64,000 bases of DNA, from the NCBI RefSeq assembly GCF_041381155.1, contig NC_091134.1, positions 71,011,469-71,075,468 on the forward strand, read 5' to 3'. The stretch comes from Argopecten irradians. Taxonomy: Eukaryota > Mollusca > Bivalvia > Pectinida > Pectinidae. Shown piece after piece: positions 7,921-64,000 of this stretch. The notes beneath the pieces are model-generated. The model ran no database searches. It was not told the DNA's origin and saw nothing but the letters and a program-made list of their open reading frames with translations. Position 1 is the stretch's first letter. Every line of letters starts with the position of its first letter. Position numbers and translations under genes: made by a program.

Positions 7921-9290
7921 AGCTCCACAGACGCCATCAGTCAGGTCAACCTCTCCCTGAACGTTTCGACTCCTAACCTGAAACGTCCTCAAAATGGCAA
8001 AATAATTGGCCAAATCACTGCTCATCTGTGGATAGCTTCCAGCTCATGTCTTGTCGTCTTCACCACAGCTAGCTGGACGACCTCTCTGCTGTTCTTGACA
8101 GTCGGTCCACTGCTGCTTTCTTGTCTCTGCTCTTTACACCCAGTGCTGCAAACATTCTCCATGTTGAATGTGCAGGAAATCCTCTACATCCGATCTCCAC
8201 TGGGAAGACCCAAACACTCCTACCTAGGGCTCTGATATCTCCTGCCATTGCTTCATACTTCCCCTACTTTCATTCAAATGCATCTTTCTTCACATGGAAG
8301 TGTCAATTCCGCCATGACCATCTTCTTTCCCTGCTGTGACCATATGAAGATATCTGAACGCAGATTGGTCTGGATGATGTCGGGGAATACCAGTTTTCTG
8401 TCTAAATTGACCCAAATCTCACCTCAAAATTCTGTGCGCCGTCAAGAATTCCCCACTGGTGAACAGTTGTAGAAGTGTGTCCTCCCTCCCCGCCTCATAA
8501 GTTGATGAACATACAACCCTTCGCAGGCTTACGCTTCTTGTCCTCTCCCTCTCCAGGATGTCAATCAGTTCTCTTAGCACCTTGTCATGGCGCCATCTGT
8601 AGCGTCCTTGTGTAAGGGCAACCTTGCATCCTGATAGTACATGCGCAAGGTTCCCTGGTCGGTTGCACAAATGATAGTCTAGAGTCTCAGTCAAGCCCCA
8701 TATATGGAGGTTAGTAGGCGAGGGAAACAGGTCGTAAACTGACCTCAGCAGGTAGAACTGGATTCGAAAAGGTTCCATATGCCAGGTGTCTGACCAAGAC
8801 AGTCTTCTGTCTGTAGTTCCCCACCTCGTCCATGTGCCCTAGGCTACCATCTCCATCACTTTGGCCTTCCTGATTTCCTCCTCCATTTTCCTGATGTTGT
8901 TCCTGTACCATCTTCCTCTTGCCGGCTTTGTCTGATGTTCGCTAGCGCTGCACATGGCTTGTACCCAGTCCCTGGCGTCCTACAGTCCCTGGTGTCCTAC
9001 GCCCGTTGTACCCACGATGTCCTGATGTCTCAGGCAGCTCTCAGCTGATTGCAGACGATTCCCTCCTCTTTCTAGTCTCAAAGCCAACAAGTCTGATCTT
9101 TCGAGTCTGTCACATCACCTGTCTTGAAGTCCGTATTGGTAGAACCACGCCTTGAATTTCCCTGAAAGTCCTACATGTATCTTGTCGATCGCTCCAAGTC
9201 CCTCTTGTGGCTGTCCTGGCAGCCTCCTGATGTTGTTCGGGTCATCCAGGCGTGCATCAAACCACATAAACATACTTGGTAGCTGCAGTT
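7920..9290 (-). mobile_element. 5'-truncated LINE with restriction-like endonuclease (R2/NeSL-type)
   Basis: Minus-strand translation gives, in order, a thumb-like segment (GLSGKFKAWFYQYGLQ, near 9130-9175), then FRIQFYLLRSVYDLFPSPTN and ILERERTR within the 119-codon frame at 8419-8778, including a LCNRPGNLAHVLSGC knuckle. It then reads LDRKLVFPDIIQTNLRSDI and VMAELTLPCEERC near 8280-8430. The last part matches the PD...E-x-T layout of the restriction-like endonuclease at the C-terminus of R2/NeSL/HERO-type LINEs. Upstream RT motifs are missing and frames shift several times. Dead fragment. The clade is inferred from the endonuclease type only. Confidence 0.7.
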
Positions 9291-10398
9291 CATCTTTAGG
9301 TAAAAGGGTAAATTATAGTAGTCAATACTCAATAGATGTGTTTTTTAAAGATGATTTAAGCTCAATATCTGGTCTCTCTGTCCTTTTATAAGAGAAGAAA
9401 GCATTTAAGATTTTGTTCTACTCAAAACATATTACCATGAATGAAGTATCCTTCGTTTTCAAAACAAAATTGACAGTCCTTATTTCATCAACTGAAACAG
9501 AATCAATCTAATGTCTCTAGGCCTGTAAGTTATCATAAAGAAGTCATTCTAGTTCAAACTAAGTGATCCCTAGATCAAGGTAATTTATTTAAACAAACTT
9601 AGCCCTTCATCCAGCATGCTACAGCCCTAATATCAGATCTCTAGTTTGACTAGTTTTACTTCATTAACAAGGATTTGTTTGAAGAGTTTAGCCTTTTTAG
9701 CCCCTATGACCTTTGATGCATGTAAAGGTCATTTATTTAAACAAACACAAAACTGGTAACTGTTCATCTTATAGCATGCTACAGGCCCAATATCATTTGT
9801 CTGGGTCACTTGACTCACTTGGTATTTTAGAAGTTGTTTAAACAAGAGTTGACACCAGACACCCAAGGGATGGACGTCATATAAAATTTCTTGCCTTTCA
9901 GACAGGTGAACAAAAAATGATATTAATCATGTAAAACAAAATAAAAAACAAATATATTTACTATCTGTATTATGTTTTCTTAATACCCCTTCATAAAACA
10001 ATTGTAAAATAATTATATAATCATGCATTTCCTCACATGAAGAAAAATAAAATCTAAAATGTTACAAAGCAAGCAATCAGATTGGTTAGAATCTTGACAG
10101 TGCTCAATTTTAGAAATATATAAATACATGTACTAAATACATGTACTTCAGAGGTTTTGATCGCATACAGACAATAATGAATTTGCAATTAAAAAAAATA
10201 GTGTGTTTAGAGAACCAGTCTCAATTTTGCCACGAGATATTTCAGAGGGAAATGAAAATACTGTGGATACTATATGTGATGGTAAACTGTCTAGTATCAA
10301 TGATGAGATCAACTTTGTCTTTACTTGATGACCTTATTGCACACAAATACAGTGCACTATATATGTACATACATTTGACAAAACCTCTTCAGAAGATG
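9291..10398. other. Downstream flank of the 10.4-kb zinc-finger gene
   Basis: At 9560-9880 lie minus-oriented core units of the 32.9-kb tandem-core family (tagcatgctacag and aggtca-type phrases). The rest is AT-rich, with no exon or RNA gene seen. A 102-codon plus-strand frame at 10141-10449 overlaps the gene's end and has no recognisable domain. Confidence 0.4.
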
Positions 10399-12063
10399 CT
10401 AATTTTTGAAGGAATCATTTCCTATATGGTCCATGACATGTTTGGATAGTGAATCTCCATCACAAAACGCTTCACCACACATATCACATTTCAATGGTAA
10501 TTGTATCACTGTAGATCTACAGGTATCCGTGTGTGTACATATACACAATACTTCACCACACATATTACATGGTTTTTGTAATTCTGTACAGGTATCTGTA
10601 TGTGTACACTTACACGATACTTCACCACATACACTACATGGTATTTGTAATTCTGTACAGGTATCTGTATGTGTACACTTACACAATACTTCACCACATA
10701 CATTACATGGTGTTTGTAATTCTGTACAAGTTTCTGTATGTGTACATATACACAATACTTTACCACATACATTACATGGTATTTGTATTTCTGTACAGGT
10801 ATCTGTATGTGTACACTTACACAATACTTCACCACATACATTACATGGTATTTGTAATTCTGTACAAGTTTCTGTATGTGTACATATACACAATACTTTA
10901 CCACATACACTACATGGTATTTGTAATTCTGTACAGGTATCTGTATGTGTACACTTACACAATACTTCACCACATACATTACATGGTGTTTGTAATTCTG
11001 TACCGGTATCTGTATTTGTACATGTACACAATACTTCACCACATAAATTACACGTAATTTGTACCACTAATTCTGTGGATGTTCCGGCATTTGTACATGT
11101 ACTAACATGTCTTGTAAGATTTCCTTTGCGAGAAAACTCCCTTCCACATATGTAACATTTAAATGGTTTCTCTCCTGTATGTATTTTTACGTGCACTAAC
11201 AAGTTACTACTCTGAGAAAAGCTTTTACCACAAATGTCACACTTGAACGGTTTTTCACCTTTGTGAATTCTGAGATGTTCAGATAGATGACTTTTTCTTA
11301 AAAACCCTTTACCACAGATGTTACATTCAAGTAGTTTCTCTCCTGTATGTATCCTGACATGTTTTGAAAGGTTGCTGTTTTCATAGAACTCCTTACCACA
11401 TATGTCACACTTAAATAGTTTTTCACCTGTGTGTATCCTGAGGTGTGATGTGAGGTGACTATTTCTAGAAAACTCTTTCCCACAAGTATTACACTGAAAA
11501 GGCTTCTCCCCTGTATGTGTTCTTTTGTGTCTAACCAGATCAGAATTCCCGTTAAACTCTAGTCCACAGATGTCACAATTAAAAAGTTTTTCCCTTTTAT
11601 GTAGACGGACATGCCTTGACAGGGTACTGCTGTTGGAGAATTCCAAGTCACAAAGTTTACACTTGTAGGGTTTCTCACCTGTATGTATTCTGAAATGTCT
11701 TGACAAATCAAATTTCTGTGTGAAGACCTTCCCACAGACATCACATTTGAATGGCTTTTCTTGAGAATGAAATCTGACATGTCTTGACAACTCAAAATTC
11801 TGTGCAAAAGCCCTTCCACATATGTCACATTTAAATGGTTTCTCTCCTGTATGTATTCTGGTGTGTCTTGACAATTCAAATTCCTGAATGTACTCCTTAC
11901 CACAGATGTCACACTTAAATGGTTTTTCCCCTGTATGTGTTCTCACATGATTTAACAGCTTGCTGCTCTGAGAAAACTCTCTTCCACATATGTCACACTT
12001 GAATGGTTTATTAGCTGCATGAGTTTCTACAAGTTCATGACCAGTCAAAGCAGTCATGACCAC
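10399..12063 (-). CDS. C2H2 zinc-finger protein with a Cys-rich 23-residue repeat tail
   Basis: Unbroken 554-codon frame. Residues 21-323 hold eleven C2H2 fingers in 28-residue steps joined by TGEKP-type linkers. The eleventh ends HVSTC, so its last ligand would be Cys. Residues 336-521 are eight tandem repeats of a 23-residue unit, C-x2-C-G-x3-C-x-C-x-H-x3-C then TELQ, that keeps only the first half of a finger. Residues 522-554 hold one last ordinary finger (LKCDMCGEAF, ending HVMDH). The fingers argue for a nuclear nucleic-acid-binding protein. The target is unknown. The start is doubtful: the frame begins at a GTG, with ATG two codons in, and a pyrimidine-rich tract upstream suggests that this is a last exon joined to an unseen 5' exon. 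No KRAB, BTB or other effector domain is visible. Paralogues lie at 17.3-18.6 kb and 26.5-28.1 kb. Confidence 0.85.
   Translation of the reverse strand: MVMTALTGHELVETHAANKPFKCDICGREFSQSSKLLNHVRTHTGEKPFKCDICGKEYIQEFELSRHTRIHTGEKPFKCDICGRAFAQNFELSRHVRFHSQEKPFKCDVCGKVFTQKFDLSRHFRIHTGEKPYKCKLCDLEFSNSSTLSRHVRLHKREKLFNCDICGLEFNGNSDLVRHKRTHTGEKPFQCNTCGKEFSRNSHLTSHLRIHTGEKLFKCDICGKEFYENSNLSKHVRIHTGEKLLECNICGKGFLRKSHLSEHLRIHKGEKPFKCDICGKSFSQSSNLLVHVKIHTGEKPFKCYICGREFSRKGNLTRHVSTCTNAGTSTELVVQITCNLCGEVLCTCTNTDTGTELQTPCNVCGEVLCKCTHTDTCTELQIPCSVCGKVLCICTHTETCTELQIPCNVCGEVLCKCTHTDTCTEIQIPCNVCGKVLCICTHTETCTELQTPCNVCGEVLCKCTHTDTCTELQIPCSVCGEVSCKCTHTDTCTELQKPCNMCGEVLCICTHTDTCRSTVIQLPLKCDMCGEAFCDGDSLSKHVMDHIGNDSFKN
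10501..11058 (-). repeat. 69-bp coding minisatellite in the zinc-finger gene
   Basis: Eight copies of a 69-bp unit encode the Cys-rich repeats. Because 69 is a multiple of three, the reading frame is kept, and it also leaves long open frames on both strands. Units alternate (ICTHTETC against KCTHTDTC), suggesting later duplication in 138-bp pairs. Confidence 0.9.
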
Positions 12064-47356: not shown

Positions 47357-50300
47357 GTAGGATGTCTAATATGAAGAACAAGCAAGATTTGCTGGAAAAG
47401 CTTCCTAACCTTTTTCTGGACCCTTTGTATACCAAGAAGGTATGTCAGGTGTGTCGTTCAGTTATTCTGGATATTGTGGCAAGGGCCAGAGAAACATCAG
47501 AGACACCTCATCAACATTGGGATCACAACAACAGAAAGTTCTGTCAGGCTCTGAGCATTGCTGTTACACTATGTCCAGACTTACAAGGGTCAGTATTTAC
47601 ATGTACTAATGATCCAAACCATAAATACTTCAACAGACTCAACTAACTTAGTTTGTGAGTGGTAACTGATGATTCATCAAATGACCGGCTTTATTTCATT
47701 TTTCTACAGCTAAGCTTATTTTAGTACTTGAAAAATCTAAATTGTCACTCACAGCTAGAATGTAATACCTCTTACATTTGTAGGTGGTACATTATTATTT
47801 GGAATTCATATCTTAAATATAGTATTAAATTCAATTAATTATTGATAATTATTACTTAAAGATGCTCTACCGGCGACAAATGGTAATTTTTCTCTATAAA
47901 AAACAAGAGCAGATGATTTAGAATTTTTCTTTAGTTACAAAAGTTACTTACTTTATACTATACCATAACCACCATTGAAAAGTTTGAGCTTCTAATTTTA
48001 CTCGAAGATAAAAATATCAAAAATAATTAATTGCATCCCGAAAAATTCCGTATCACTATGTCCTATGCATCGCAAGCAAAACAAATAATTCCAAATTATT
48101 TATTGTGTAAATTAGACATAAATATACACGATTAAACACCAATCATTGTTCAAATGATGAATATCATTTATGCTCCATCAGCGGTGGAGCATCTTTAAAT
48201 ACCCACTACCTTCCCGAAACAACTTTTATTTTTTTCAATGTAAATGTAAAACGAGACTGTTAATTTTGTAGAGTCACAAAAGTTTTTAACTTACTGTTAA
48301 TACTACACATATCATCACCTTCTGAACATTTTGATTAAAATAAAATAATGTGGGTCGTCGTATGTTTCCCACTGTTGTCCTAAATACTGCACACTAGTTG
48401 ACTCTCAATGTACTAGACAGCAAAAGGCCCAAAACAGTGAAATGACTTTGTTATCATATATATATTACGGAGTAAATCTTGCTTATGTTTGATGTTGTAA
48501 TCAGCTCATCTTAGGTCATCGGTATATATTTTTCGTATGTTATTAATGTTTTAAAGAAATTGTTATGTTTTACTCCGGAAAGGTAGTGGGCCTTTAAGGT
48601 TTTTGATTTTTTGTAAGGTTATCAAAGTCAGAAGTATGTGTAATTATCATATATGTACTATTCTCTGACTGTAGATATACCCTCAGCTACCTGAGACAGT
48701 GTGGTCTGAACTTGCCATCAGCAGTGAAAAGTACAGGAAAGATGATGGCAGAGTCAGAGAAACAAGTAAGTCTTCTCATATCCTGATGTGGTCATTTCTA
48801 CTCTTTTGTTGGAATTTAGTCGATTGTGTGAAACAAGTCTTTTACAGAAAATCAGACATCAATATTTAAATGACTTTACAAGACAAAATAAATATAAGTA
48901 ATAATTTACAAGATATTGATTTGATAGTAAAAATTTTAAAATAACCATGCATCAGTAAGATAATGTTGATCTTTCTTTTTAGCCCACCACCATCAGTCCT
49001 TAGTCCATCCATCCTTCCATCCGTTAACATTCTTGTTACCGCTCAGAAAGTACTAAAATTCACTGTTCCCCTAGGTCCCTAGTTGTTCATATTGCATTTT
49101 AGGACTGATCAGTGAACTAGATGGCCAGGCCTACAACATAGATTTTGATAGTTGAAATTTGTTACCGCTAATTCTCAGAAAGTCCTGAAAGGATCTGTAT
49201 CAAATTTATGTGTAGGTTTCCCCAGGGCATTAGTTGTGCACATTGGATTTTGGGACAGATCAGTCAACAAGATGGTCAACAAGCCATCATCTGGGAATCT
49301 GATAATTGAAGTTTGTTACCATTATTTCTCAGAAAGTCCTGAAGGGATCTATCAAAATAATTTCTTATGTATATTCCCCTAGGACCCTAGTTGTGTATAT
49401 ACCATTTTTAGACTAATTGGTCTACAAGATGGATGACAGACCTCCATCTTGGATTTTGATAATTGAAGTTTGTTACCGCTATTTCTTAGTAAGTAATGAA
49501 GGAATCTGTCTCAAGTTTCGTATGGGATTTCATTAAGAGATTGCATTTAATCTTTAAATTTGATAGATTTGGAAACAATGAATTGCATATTGTGAATCTC
49601 ATTTACATGTATCAGATTTGTGTAACAGATCATTAAAAGAAATCAGATGAAAAGTTGGTGATATTTTTTTCCAGCAGGTTGAAGAACTGGCGGAGATGAT
49701 CTGGAGATTTGTCCATGTGTTGGGGAGACGTATGGCTGTCCATGTTCCATTAGATGTCCTTATGACCTATCTCGGTCAATATAGTGACCAGGCTAGGATT
49801 GTATGGTAAGTCACCAGGGAACAGGACCGTTAGGTGTCCTATCTCAGTAAATATAGTGACCAGGCTAGGATTGTATGGTAAGTCACCAGGGAACAGGACC
49901 ATTAGGTGTCCTATCTCAGTAGATATAGTGACCAGGCTAGGATTGTATGGTAAGTCACCAAGAAACAGGACCGTCCGACCGTTAGGTGTCCTATCTCAGT
50001 AACTATAGTGACCAGGCTAGGATTGTATGGTAAGTCACCAGGGAACAGGACCGTTAGGTGTCCTATCTCAGTAAATATAGTGACCAGGCTAGGATTGTAT
50101 GGTAAGTCACCAGGGAACAGGACCATTAGGTGTCCTATCTCAGTAGATATAGTGACCAGGCTAGGATTGTATGGTAAGTCACCAGGAAACAGGACCGTCC
50201 GACCGTTAGGTGTCCTATCTCAGTAACTATAGTGACCAGGCTAGGATTGTATGGTAAGTCACCAGGGAACAGGACTGTTAGGTGCCCTTTCTCAGTAACT

Positions 50301-52941
50301 ATAGTGACCAGGCTAGGATTGTATGGTAAGTAACCAGGAAACAGGACCGTCCGACCGTTAGGTGTCCTATCTCAGTAACTATAGTGACCAGGTTAGGATT
50401 GTATGGTAAGTAACCAGGAAACAGGACCGTTAAGTGCCCTATCTCAGTAACTATAGTGACCAGGCTAGGATTGTATGGTAAGTCACCAGGGAACAGGACC
50501 GTTAGGTGTCCTATCTCAGTAACTATAGTGACCAGGCTAGGATTGTATGGTAAGTCACCAGGGAACAGAACAGGACATTTAGGTGTCCTATCTCAGTAAC
50601 TATAGTGACCAGGCTAGGATTGTATGGTAAGTAACCAGGGAACAGGACATTTAGGTGTCCTATCTCAGTAACTATAGTGACCAGGCTAGGATTGTATGGT
50701 AAGTCACCAGGAAACAGAACAGGACATTTAGGTGTCCTATCTCAGTAACTATAGTGACCAGGCTAGGATTGTATGGTAAGTAACCAGGGAACAGGACATT
50801 TAGGTGTCCTATCTCAGTAACTATAGTGACCAGGCTAGGATTGTATGGTAAGTAACCAGGGAACAGGACCGTTAGGTGTCCTATCTCAGTAAATATAGTG
50901 ACCAGGCTAGGATTGTATGGTAAGTAACCAGGAAACAGGACCGTTAAGTGCCCTATCTCAGTAACTATAGTGACCAGGCTAGGATTGTATGGTAAGTAAC
51001 CAGGGAACAGGACCGTTAGGTGTCCTATCTCAGTAAATATAGTGACCAGGCTAGGATTGTATGGTAAGTAACCAGGAAACAGGACCGTTAAGTGTCCTAT
51101 CTCAGTAACTATAGTGACCAGGCTAGGATTGTATGGTAAGTTACCAGGGAACAGGACCGTCCGACCGTTAGGTGTCCTATCTCAGTAACTATAGTGACCA
51201 GGCTAGGATTGTATGGTAAGTCACCAGGGAACAGGACCGTCCGACCGTTAGGTGTCCTATCTCGGTAAATATAGTGACCATGCTAGGATTGTATGGTAAG
51301 TAACCAGGGAACAAGACCGTCCGACCGTTAGGTGTCCTATCTCAGTAACTATAGTGACCAGGTTAGGATTGTATGGTAAGTAACCAGGAAACAGGACCGT
51401 TAGGTGTCCTATCTCAGTAACTATAGTGACCAGGCTAGGATTGTATGGTAAGTAACCAGGGAACAGGATGTTAGGTGTCCTATCTCAGTAGATATAGTGA
51501 CCAGGCTAGGATTGTATGGTAAGTCACCAGGAAACAGGACCGTCCGACCGTTAGGTGTCCTATCTCAGTAAATATAGTGACCAGGCTAGGAATGTATGGT
51601 AAGTCACCAGGGAACAGGACCGTTAGGTGTCCTATCTCAGTAACTATAGTGACCAGGCTAGGATTGTATGGTAAGTAACCAGGGAACAGGACACTTTGGT
51701 ATCCTATATCTGGTACCAATGGTAAGAGAGAGAAATAAATATATTATATGAATTAGTTTTAGCAACCTAATTAATTCAGTCAAAGGTTGTAAATGTGTAG
51801 TTTATGATATAAGGGAGATATCTCTGTATCAGATGTTGTCTGTTGACCAGGTTATGTGCTGACAGTGTAGCTGTATTGTTGGGTATGACCTCAGGACAGA
51901 GAGATGCCCTGGTGTCCTCCACACTACAGACCGAGGAGGAGGGAGTTCTGTCTACACTAAAACTACAGTAAGTACAATGGTTCTGTCTGTGTAACCTTGA
52001 GATTAAAATTAAACAAATGTGTATGTATAATGTATGACACATTCTCAGAATTTTTACTCGTTGAATGTTTTCTTGAAATTTTAGAAGGATTTGAGAGGAA
52101 ACTTATCTAGGTATAACTCAGACTATAATCATTAAAGATTGTAAAAATATTTAAACATATAACAATGTTAAGTAAATTTTTTTCTGACCAACAGCAGAGT
52201 TTAATAGTTGTTTCTTAATCCATATTTTATGGAAAAAAATCATAATTGATATCAATGTTATTAATCTTCAACTGACATGTTTATGTGTGTCAAGTGTGTA
52301 TGGTACTAGACTTACTTAGATGGTAGGGGCACTAACTGTCAAGTGTGTATGGTACTAGACTTACTTAGATGGTAGGGGCACTAACTGTCAAGTGTGTATG
52401 GTACTAGACTTACTTAGATGGTAGGGGCACTAACTGTCAAGTGTGTATGGTACTAGACTTACTTAGATGGTAGGGGCACTAACTGTCAAGTGTGTATGGT
52501 ACTAGACTTACTTAGATGGTAGGGACACTAACTGTCAAGTGTGTATGGTACTAGACTTACTTAGATGGTAGGGGCACTAACTGTCAAGTGTGTATGGTAC
52601 TAGACTTACTTAGATGGTAGGGACACTAACTGTCAAGTGTGTATGGTACTAGAGTTACTTAGATGGTAGGGGCACTAACTGTCAAGTGTGTATGGTACTA
52701 GACTTACTTAGTTGGTAGGGGCACTAACTGTCATGTTATCAATTACAGACACATCAATTGGTGTCAGAAGTGTGGACTGTCAGACCCTCTGATGGAGGAT
52801 CACTCTGTGGCGTTGCCCCTGGAGATCCCAGAGCAGAATCTGACTGAGGTCATCCAGGGACTGGATCAGGCTGACCTCCATCACAGTGTGGTCCTGGTGT
52901 CGGGTATCCTTTTACCTAGGATTAGAAGTACAGACGACAAG
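47357..52941 (+). CDS. MDN1: MDN1 exons 1-5: N-terminal helical region
   Basis: Encodes QDLLEKLPNLFLDPL through SVVLVSGILLPRI, weakly conserved against vertebrate midasin but collinear (LLLDL, CVSMSKLIGNHPDVLP and VTAVCGVVLPG positions). Exon 3 ends in tg|gtaagt and exon 4 restores Trp. Its donor is the seed of the 26-copy array. Exon 5 is entered from the 49-bp array. Confidence 0.85.
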
Positions 52942-61900: not shown

Positions 61901-62127
61901 ACACCTCTGAAGTTTATGGATTCATATGGTTGTTTTAGAACAGACTATATTATGCACTGCTTTATGTACTGTATAAAGTGCCTATGATGCAAAGATCATA
62001 AACATTTCCGTTGACCATCTCATGATTTTTGGTTTGGTGTAGGACTGCTTTGCCAAACAGAAATGGGAAATAATGTTGACTTTAATGGAGCACACCCTTA
62101 ATCCAGCGATACAGCGCTGTAAAACAG
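47357..62127 (+). CDS. MDN1: Midasin (pre-60S AAA+ ATPase), N-terminal part, gene continues past window
   Basis: Fifteen exons with GT/AG borders and consistent phase: 47357-47588 (ATG at 47362), 48675-48765, 49675-49805, 51851-51967, 52749-52941, 53369-53578, 55724-55959, 56462-56576, 56797-56957, 57158-57335, 57642-57754, 59186-59337, 61064-61124, 61522-61636, 62043-62127. They give about 728 residues that follow vertebrate midasin block by block: the N-terminal helical region, AAA1 (Walker A GPVGSGKTS, Walker B WVLLEDID), then the start of AAA2 (GETGTGKTS, NMNQQSD, GFKPVD). Midasin is a giant nucleolar/nuclear ATPase that strips assembly factors (Ytm1/WDR12, Rsa4/NLE1) from pre-60S particles. 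The N-terminus is some 35-40 residues shorter than in human, so an upstream coding exon may be missed. For the third exon, acceptor 49674 or 49677 is possible (one extra Gln). Confidence 0.93.
47860..48194. mobile_element. TTAA-type miniature element in MDN1 intron 1
   Basis: 335 bp with ends agatgctctaccggcgac and atcagcggtggagcatct, bounded by TTAA at 47856-47859 and 48195-48198. Reverse-oriented relative of 30567-30912. Confidence 0.8.
48199..48593. mobile_element. Second TTAA-type miniature element, abutting the first
   Basis: 395 bp with ends atacccactaccttcccga and tccggaaaggtagtgggcct, bounded by TTAA at 48195-48198 (shared with the previous element) and 48594-48597. Full-length relative at 28845-29240 in reverse orientation. 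Confidence 0.8.
48980..49530 (+). repeat. Tandem repeat, about 145-150 bp, three to four units, MDN1 intron 2
   Basis: Units share gaagtttgttaccgctattt, ctcagaaagtcctgaaggga and cccctaggtccctagttgtg. Opens with tttttagcccaccaccatca, like the 5' start of hairpin-ended tandem-core elements, but no 3' hairpin is seen. Confidence 0.65.
49749..51700 (+). repeat. Minisatellite made of the MDN1 exon-3 end plus its splice donor, 26 copies
   Basis: The unit is 72 bp (80 bp in copies with an extra ccgtccga). It runs from exon-like gtgtcctatctcagtaacta and tagtgaccaggctaggattg to tatg|gtaagtcaccaggaacag, that is, about 49 bases matching the exon end and 23 bases of intron. The first copy is the real exon end. 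Nearly all 26 keep a full gtaagt. Reading through the first donor meets TAA at 49807 at once. Confidence 0.92.
52285..52735 (+). repeat. 49-bp minisatellite next to the MDN1 exon-5 acceptor, nine copies
   Basis: Unit tgtcaagtgtgtatggtact, agacttacttagatggtagg, ggcactaac, nearly identical between copies. The last copy runs straight into ttatcaattacag, the exon acceptor. The ACTAAC at the unit end resembles a branch point, and in the last copy it lies 21 bases before the AG border. Confidence 0.9.
53369..53578 (+). CDS. MDN1: MDN1 exon 6: AAA1 P-loop
   Basis: LLQGPVGSGKTSVVEHLAHL is the Walker A loop and following helix, then KIQLGDQTDSK, a stretch nearly identical across animals. Exactly 70 codons, phase 0 at both borders. 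Confidence 0.95.
53791..55432. mobile_element. Non-autonomous TA-target DNA element in MDN1 intron 6
   Basis: Ends ccgtaaaaacttgtgtaatt and tgcgcac against their complement (one mismatch over about 27 bp), flanked by TA on both sides, give a 1642-bp element of Tc1/mariner-like target choice. A second copy of the inner gtgcgcaaattac motif lies inside each end. No transposase frame. It carries a 199-bp tandem array. Confidence 0.75.
54308..54885 (+). repeat. 199-bp tandem repeat, three copies
   Basis: Starts at tgcaggccgtgtgcaaaaag at 54312, 54511 and 54710. The units are nearly identical until the third diverges near 54850. Recent local amplification inside the TA element. Confidence 0.9.
55724..55959 (+). 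CDS. MDN1: MDN1 exon 7: AAA1 Walker B and sensor region
   Basis: CTDIPGEFVWQAGVLTRAV, then Walker B HWVLLEDIDSAP (D-E-D-I-D acidic pair kept), LLPLLE and PGFQLFATQR, the sensor-1 strand. All expected AAA+ residues are present. Confidence 0.95.
56462..57754 (+). CDS. MDN1: MDN1 exons 8-11: AAA1 lid and linker to AAA2
   Basis: Encodes LLEKMWTKVNVEPL, VTEKLLDIYF, RDLMNWCRRVAP, LQEALDCFAACL, EAIGAKLNIS and AEYFCCKYKPE, collinear with human (LLDKYWTKI, RDLLNWCNRI, FQEALDCF, GSKLNIS, AEFFC). The exon-10 donor is taken at gtaggt, because gttatg six bases earlier would drop two residues that the family has. Confidence 0.9.
57869..58689 (+). mobile_element. Tandem-core hairpin element in MDN1 intron 11
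   Basis: 5' hairpin ttttaggtcatctgacccg / gggtcaggat. Four core units of about 146 bp follow (gaacttcttctcaagttcta, catgaaatgatcctgacatg, aatccaagatggccgccaca). A 3' hairpin end aaggcccttgggcctcttgt lies at 58547-58569, and a second end (aaggccctttgggcctcttg) lies at 58664-58689. The tail has thus been duplicated. Minus frames of about 63 codons inside are repeat shadows. Confidence 0.75.
59186..62127 (+). CDS. MDN1: MDN1 exons 12-15: start of AAA2
   Basis: Walker A VLLVGETGTGKTSSVQYLAE, then GHTLKVINMNQQSDSSDLLG, GFKPVDMRHVIRPFREDFEI and DCFAKQKWEIMLTLMEHTLN. The last exon ends CKT-G (phase 1) at a gtatgt donor, which is the seed of the terminal 57-bp array. The next exon lies beyond the window. 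Confidence 0.92.
59412..60897. mobile_element. Non-autonomous hAT-like element in MDN1 intron 12
   Basis: Ends caggggtgtacaattc and gaattgtacacccctg are perfect inverted repeats. tcatt is duplicated at 59407-59411 and 60898-60902. Several palindromes based on ctagccc...gggctagt sit inside each end. 1486 bp with no transposase frame. Confidence 0.8.
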
Positions 62128-64000
62128 GTATGTTATTATAAATGGAACACACATTCAATCTAGCAATACAGGGCTGTAAAACAGGTATGTTATTATAAAT
62201 GGAACACACATTCAATCTAGTGATACAACACTGTAAAACAGGTATGTTATAATAAATGGAACACACATTCAATCTAGCGATACAGCGTTGTACAACAGGT
62301 ATGTTTTTATAAATTGAACACACATTCAATCTTGTGATACAGCACTGTAAAACAGGTATGTTTTTATAAATGGAACACACATTCAATCTAGTGATACAGC
62401 GCTGTACAACAGGTATGCTTTTATAAATGGAAACACACATTCAATCTAGCGATACAGGGCTGTAAAACAGGTATGTTTTTATAAATGGAACACACATTCA
62501 ATCTAGTGATACAGCAATGTAAAACAGGTATGTTTTTATAAATGGAACACACATTCAATCTAGTGATACAGCACTGTAAAACAGGTATGTTTTTATAAAT
62601 GGAACACACATTCAATCTAGCGATACAGTGCTGTACAACAGGTATGTTTTTATAAATGGAACACACATTCAATCTAGCGATACAGCGCTGTAAAACAGGT
62701 ATGTTATAATAAATGGAACACACATTCAATCTAGCGATATAGCGCTGTAAAACAGATATGTTTTTATAAATGGAACACACATTCAATCTAGCTATACAGG
62801 GCTGTAAAACAGGTATGTTTTTATAAATGGAACACACATTCAATCTAGCGATACAGGGCTGTAAAACAGGTGTGTTTTTATAAATGGAGCACACATTCAA
62901 TCTAGCGATACAGGGCTGTAAAACAGATATGTTTTTATAAATGGATCACACATTCAATCTCGTGATACAGGGCTGTAAAACAGATGTTTTTATAAATGGA
63001 ACACACTTTCAATCTAGTGATACAGCGCTGTACAACAGGTATGTTTTTATAAATGGAACACACATTCAATCTAGCGATATAGCGCTGTAAAACAGATATG
63101 TTTTTATAAATGGAACACACATTCAATCTAGCGATACAGGGCTGTAAAACAGATATGTTTTTATAAATGGAACACACATTCATTCTAGCGATACAGCACT
63201 GTAAAACAGGTATGTTTTTTAAATGGAACACACATTCAATCTAGTGATACAGCACTGTAAAACAGGTATGTTATGATAAATGGAACACACATTCAATCTA
63301 GTGATACAACACTGTAAAACAGGTATGTTATAATAAATGGCACACACATTCAATCTAGTGATACAGCGCTGTAAAACAGATATGTTTTTATAAATGGAAC
63401 ACATTCAATCTAGTGATACAGCGCTATATAACAGGTATGTTTTTATAAATGGAACACATATTCAATCTAGCAATACAGCGCTGTACAACAGGTATGTTTT
63501 TATAAATGGAACACACATTCAATCTAGTGATACAGCGCTGTAAAACAGATATGTTTTTATAAATGGAACACACATTCAATCTAGTGATACAGCGCTGTAA
63601 AACAGATATGTTTTTATAAATGGAACACATTCAATCTAGTGATACAGCGCTATACAACAGGTATGTTTTTATAAATGGAACACATATTCAATCTAGCAAT
63701 ACAGCGCTGTACAACAGGTATGTTTTTATAAATGGAACACACATTCAATCTAGCAATACAGGGCTGTAAAATAGTTAATTTTTTTATAAATGGAACACAC
63801 ATTCAATCTAGCGATACCAGGCTGTAAAACAGGTATGTTTTTATAAATGGAACACATATTCAATCTAGTGATACAGCGCTGTACAACAGGTATGTTTTTA
63901 TAAATGGAACACACATTCAATCTAGCGATACAGGGCTGTAAAACAGGTATGCTATAAAAAATGAAACACACATTCAATCTAGGGATGCAGGGCTGTAAAA
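62083..64000 (+). repeat. 57-bp minisatellite made of the MDN1 exon-15 end plus its splice donor, about 33 copies
   Basis: Unit atggaacacacattcaatct, agcgatacagcgctgtaaaa, cag|gtatgtttttataa. The exon end itself (from atggagcacacccttaatcc) is the first copy. Some copies read cagatatg and so lack the GT. As 57 is a multiple of three, long minus-strand frames appear that are not genes. The array runs past the window end. Confidence 0.92.

Follow-up and report, generated by a model that had tools for sequence, protein, structure and literature searches.

Minisatellite-like duplications of intron-exon boundaries are described in the globin genes of amphioxus, under the name mirages that was given earlier in Adh3; they are reported to lie at both boundaries, to be unstable in length and to leave splicing undisturbed (PMC3087553), and further amphioxus cases are given for troponin C and PGBD5 (PMC3902484). 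Mirages are reported for a handful of genes; their units measure 10-160 bp, and one globin gene carries 3-6 of them. Minisatellites of the ordinary intronic kind are also described, for instance in Sparus, where a polymorphic 150-bp repeat lies in MSTN-2 at the 5' end of intron 1 (PMC3045353). Here we describe a 64,000-nt stretch of the bivalve Argopecten irradians (RefSeq assembly GCF_041381155.1, NC_091134.1, positions 71,011,469 to 71,075,468 of the forward strand; referred to below as the window), in which the end of an exon and the start of its intron, splice donor included, are repeated in tandem within a gene that is most likely midasin (MDN1).

As in the amphioxus mirages, the tandem unit crosses an exon-intron boundary and many copies carry a splice signal. 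Unlike the mirages in the available descriptions, the exon-anchored arrays measured here hold roughly 8 to >150 copies, recur genome-wide and are dominated by donor words; it is this scale and donor bias that are new. The likeness to Sparus MSTN-2 lies in the position of the repeats near the intron 5' end, whereas exon sequence or a copied donor within the repeat is not reported in the available part of that account. A literature search, with most subscription papers outside its reach, found such arrays reported neither on a genome-wide scale nor in any mollusc, and boundary-spanning minisatellites only in a few amphioxus genes. Rogers, Gao and Lynch, and Zhuo et al. reportedly described intron gain via tandem duplication of AG/GT sites. 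Tandem-duplicated exon sequence with splice signals would be raw material for introns in both settings; however, here a pre-existing intron is lengthened and no new intron is shown.

The repeated donor junction and its host gene

The array and its flanks comprise the following features (a slash marks an exon boundary).

49675..49805 (start approximate), + strand: source exon of array 1, ending in phase 2 with ...YSDQARIV(W), most likely midasin (sequence, open reading frame)
49758..49805, + strand: copied exon tail, ~48 nt (unit 1 aligned to the exon end)
49806..49811, + strand: first (presumed true) donor GTAAGT (sequence)
49806..51707, + strand: donor-junction array 1, 25 further units (Tandem Repeats Finder (TRF), word count, unit alignment, genome search)
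51851..51967, + strand: next exon, with acceptor ...TTGACCAG/G, restoring the TGG codon (sequence, reading frame)

The preliminary description of this stretch reported a donor junction amplified about 26 times, and this was confirmed: TRF called a 72-bp unit in 26.1 copies with 90% matches at 49766-51707, and 26 intact donors were found at 49806-51707, the presumed true one counted among them. The word TATGGTAAGT occurs 26 times in 49802-51676 and 28 times in the whole window, where shuffles gave an expectation of 0.22. Beyond the first donor lie 25 further units of 71-80 nt, each with a GTAAGT donor at its end. Donor retention, described before as near-complete, extends to all copies (26/26), and the hexamer and the TGTATG just before it are invariant across units. 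When unit 1 was aligned with the adjoining exon end, 48 nt matched and were followed by ~24 nt of intron; by this alignment the unit spans the exon-intron boundary and consists of exon tail plus intron start. A search of the 845.8-Mb genome with the 72-bp unit returned 27 matches, all within C1:71061231-71063178.

The copies differ among themselves by substitutions and by indels of 5-8 nt, and blocks of three units recur as a higher-order repeat with a 224-nt period; these higher-order copies suggest turnover of the array. The same features bear on whether the array was created by the assembly. Copy number in tandem arrays is error-prone and is known here from the assembly alone, but divergent copies with higher-order structure, together with the recurrence of like architecture at other loci, make an assembly artefact highly improbable.

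The intron holding array 1 measures 2,045 nt and is nearly all array. The source exon has its last base at 49805, in phase 2, and the next exon its first at 51851; a TGG codon is split between them, and the frame is open across the first donor to this acceptor. The earlier claim that the first donor alone gives an intact frame was upheld: when this donor is read through, TAA is reached one codon further on. Such a stop is ordinary, however, since it arises wherever a phase-2 exon directly precedes GTAAGT.

Midasin is a ribosome-assembly gene. The predicted exons downstream of the array-1 exon, when joined, matched solved midasins with E=2.5e-118, and one exon matched the Pfam midasin AAA lid (8.6e-13). 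This alignment starts downstream of the array-1 exon, whose encoded residues fall on the N-terminal side of the aligned region; a phmmer search with the array-1 exon together with its neighbour, and no other exons, gave no midasin match. The previous assignment to MDN1 therefore stands by direct match for the downstream exons but not for the array-1 exon itself, which most likely belongs to the gene, judging from its position and the open frame across the junction into midasin-matching exons.

A second donor-junction array starts at an exon further downstream.

62043..62127, + strand: midasin exon with amplified tail DCFAKQKWEIMLTLMEHTLNPAIQRCKT (sequence; its DCFAKQKWEIMLTLME aligned with yeast midasin)
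62128..64000, continuing past the window to C1:71076617, + strand: donor-junction array 2, 57-bp unit (TRF, sequence)

The exon of array 2 gave no midasin match when submitted alone to phmmer, and was aligned to midasin within the joined exons. Array 2 follows the junction ...AAAACAG/gtatgt, has ~51 copies in its main TRF row, and truly ends at the window equivalent of 65149. Its donors are less uniform: GT is kept in 37/47 of those scored, and has become AT in 10/47.

Donor words and arrays across the genome

Tandem occurrences of a donor word, AGGTAAGT, were compared genome-wide with those of the same word reversed as a control. Single copies were near-equal (52,563 and 45,462, respectively), yet triples spaced 38-68 nt numbered 9,683 for the donor word and 1,057 for the control; at spacings of 22-52 and 60-90 nt the counts were 5,902 and 770, and for triples with irregular gaps 555 and 13. 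A related word, CAGGTATGT, formed 1,816 triples against 157 for its control, a comparison made without a single-copy baseline. As matches inside one array are not independent, arrays were counted instead: the irregular donor triples fell into 20 arrays among 100 listed matches, which span C1 to the start of C12 or ~70% of the genome (with the length of C10 assumed), and the control gave 4 arrays in the whole genome (p=1.4e-4). The excess over the control is thus ~9-fold by matches and ~7-fold by arrays, and by extrapolation arrays of AGGTAAGT would number in the hundreds. The pattern TATGGTAAGT plus TAA showed no genome-wide excess (123 versus 109 in the control).

These counts raise the possibility that in this lineage tandem duplication arises preferentially at donors, or at transcribed exon-intron junctions, which would act as mutational hotspots with the arrays as silent passengers. 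The proposed causes are transcription- or splicing-linked breaks, pausing, or microhomology of the donor word, which would lead to re-copying with its end point directly 3' of the donor. The excess of triples despite near-equal singles favors such a hotspot, as do the array count and the excess of CAGGTATGT, together with units that have a short intron part. Acceptor-like words, counted without a single-copy baseline, speak in both directions: triples of TTTACAGG were likewise raised (4,509 versus 2,332, and 109 versus 17 in a second search), although this word followed by T can double as a donor (TTTACAGGT), and triples of TTTTCAGG were not in excess (433 versus 637 in the control). Since TTTACAGG with T may be a donor, we make no claim that amplification is donor-exclusive. 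Overall, we consider a donor or junction hotspot a possible but unlikely explanation; it could also operate jointly with selection on which duplications are tolerated. Somewhat more tentative still is the proposal that the working donor itself, beyond its motif, is a genome-wide seed of minisatellites ending just past the U1-binding hexamer. If true, the DNA would be shaped by events of transcription or splicing at the junction, and hundreds to thousands of introns would have been lengthened in this manner.

Nineteen of the 20 irregularly spaced arrays were read in sequence; the array on C12 was left out, and locus L014, mentioned below, came from the search at 38-68 nt spacing and is outside the 19. 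In 12/19 the array starts at an open exon ending in the first donor (L015, L018, L020, L022, L024, L025, L026, L028, L029, L030, L033, and L021, whose start lies in L034), six of these being placed by an open frame and an acceptor only (L015, L018, L025, L026, L030 and L034). Homology extends up to the donor in exons of RNF216 (2.1e-21), DHX16 (2e-33) and EXOC6 (5.2e-10), and another sampled array adjoins a PAN domain exon (1.8e-4). The PIP5K (L024) and RING finger (L028) exons gave matches under the Pfam cut-off. The family searches left out L015, L026 and L034; those against Pfam gave no match for L022, L025 and L030 and sub-cut-off matches only for L010, L018 and L020, and phmmer found no match for the EXOC6 and PIP5K exons. 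Outside the sample, the search for TATGGTAAGT plus TAA led to a CSTF1 exon, matched up to the donor (3.2e-24), with an 89-bp array.

The units of exon-anchored arrays at different loci are mutually unrelated in sequence. This bears on whether a satellite or mobile element was inserted beside the donor. Some of the arrays read (L014, L019 and L032) look, by eye, like palindromic, element-like tandem arrays; they contain AGGTAAGT, have no exon visible at their start, and would suit an element. However, the array-1 unit matches its adjoining exon and nothing else in the 845.8 Mb, and each exon-anchored array has its own sequence; for the exon-anchored arrays an inserted element is thus a very remote prospect.

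Two further observations were made at these loci. At the DHX16 locus the next exon (...NARTGMESLIVTPISK/gtaagt; exon assigned by eye) is followed by a second donor array of 39-bp units (L022, reverse strand, oriented 8640-9901), which turned up without being sought. At L034:1-560 a TATACAG-type acceptor array lies directly upstream of an exon with a downstream donor array, such that both flanks of this exon carry arrays.

Origin and persistence of the arrays

The arrays are best explained, with a probability of roughly 0.6, as splice-silent minisatellites of the mirage type, which arose when exon ends were duplicated in tandem and which are tolerated because splicing would use the first donor. 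Array 1 derives locally from its exon, its donors are intact, arrays of the same design recur at other genes, and donor words exceed their control. The initial duplication would have covered the tail of the exon and the opening bases of its intron, with subsequent growth by unequal exchange or slippage, of which the three-unit higher-order repeats may be a visible product. The first donor would remain beside an intact exon and be made first, and all sequence beyond it would leave with the intron. Duplications within the exon would alter the protein and be removed, and duplications on the acceptor side are probably less tolerated, since an acceptor lying upstream would come before the true one; filtering of both would therefore leave a surviving set rich in donor-side arrays. 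An array would persist because it is splice-silent, and its copies need no function. This explanation draws on the restriction of the unit to one locus and its alignment to the adjoining exon, and on the exon-end starts of unrelated sequence in 12/19 sampled arrays. The clustering of MDN1 arrays at exon edges, given below, and the normal splicing reported for amphioxus mirages also favor it. The filter further accounts for the survival, at exon ends, of units made up largely of exon.

The preliminary description had proposed a special function instead, with the array as a U1 sink, a guard against premature polyadenylation or a control on the dose of productive transcript. A functional array of U1-binding sites that suppresses premature polyadenylation or tunes mRNA yield would be in keeping with the 26/26 intact donors of array 1, each with a U1 duplex energy of -9.1 to -10.7 kcal/mol, and with in-frame stops upon read-through in 12/13 arrays with an assigned phase, a result that also fits tolerated arrays used at the first donor. 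The exception is L024, where an array following the PIP5K-like exon (from L024:4264) has a first unit of 60 nt, and 150 nt of read-through contain no stop; use of later donors at this locus could add in-frame residues and lengthen the protein.

The conservation test lends a U1 function no support. Over 16 arrays, conservation of the donor 9-mers did not exceed that of other unit positions (mean percentile 0.60, Wilcoxon p=0.38), in a weak test in which single arrays differ and which takes in L016, whose exon is not established; in this test, as in those of read-through, U1 energy and breakpoints, the end of array 2 was set ~1.5 kb too far. The donor was among the best-kept parts of the unit in L018 and L028 (percentile 1.00) and in L010, L024 and L025 (~0.9), but stood at percentile 0.00 in L026. 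Loss of GT in 10/47 array-2 donors points the same way as the overall result, as does the occurrence of a single AATAAA or ATTAAA hexamer in the 2,045-nt intron, at 51734, after the array. Exon ends of unrelated genes, moreover, bear such arrays in unrelated sequence. The functional proposal was therefore not sustained, and we regard it as improbable; donors that are not specially conserved accord with copies that are simply tolerated.

Several observations weigh against tolerated duplication as a complete account. Seven of the 19 sampled arrays lack a demonstrated exon start (L016, L017, L019, L023, L027, L031 and L032); the 5' end of the array was not reached in L016, an exon-like stretch stops ~75 nt upstream of the array in L027, and L031 has a short open frame only. 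A tolerance filter alone leaves the donor excess given above unexplained, and would need births to be concentrated in or near exons. Acceptor-side and branch-point-side arrays are present in MDN1 too. Breakpoints also tend to fall immediately 3' of the donor, the intron part making up less than half of the unit in 12/15 units, which are thus mostly exon (sign test p=0.035, Kolmogorov-Smirnov p=0.055, with five intron-part values set by eye: array 2 of MDN1 (MDN1_b), L026, L028, L029 and L030). This bias would be expected of a donor hotspot but is statistically weak. In L020, L033 and L026 the units join, by eye, at the donor's own AAGT/GTAAGT-like letters, which would likewise suit a hotspot. 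As the filter does not fully account for the excess of donor arrays, a hotspot retains some probability alongside the splice-silent minisatellites favored here.

A genome with such arrays at many donors makes it possible to ask directly how the spliceosome picks 1 of 26 near-identical donors. The rate at which introns lengthen or originate by way of arrays, and whether donors are mutational hotspots, also become addressable. For gene predictors, each array presents dozens of false exon ends.

Further arrays in the same gene stretch

In addition to the two donor-junction arrays, repeats were found near other exon edges of the MDN1 stretch, including one within the window.

52288..52733, + strand: array of nine 49-bp units, stopping 15 nt short of the exon at 52749 (TRF)

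This array contains CACTAAC nine times, a motif that we take to resemble a branch point. Past the window end on C1, an acceptor-side array of 41-bp x 8 lies at L009:4826-5154; its unit joins ~27 nt of intron sequence to 14 nt from the start of the exon, and the last copy enters the true exon (from ~5139). Both exon boundaries are thus affected in this gene stretch, by donor-side arrays and by this acceptor-side array. A near-donor array of 31-bp units (TTTACAGGTGTATTAA...) at L009:8288-8905 begins ~27 nt past another MDN1 donor.

All five TRF arrays of at least 3.5 copies in the stretch of MDN1 covered lie within ~30 nt of an exon edge. The probability of such clustering is ~2e-6 with 20 introns assumed (the test assumed 15, 20 or 25), and 2e-4 when four low-copy arrays are added, giving 5/9, with these four taken as misses without an exon-by-exon check.

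Elsewhere in the window, a 69-bp x 7.9 tandem array lies at 10518-11063, near several 84-bp repeats that are zinc-finger-like, as labelled by sequence.

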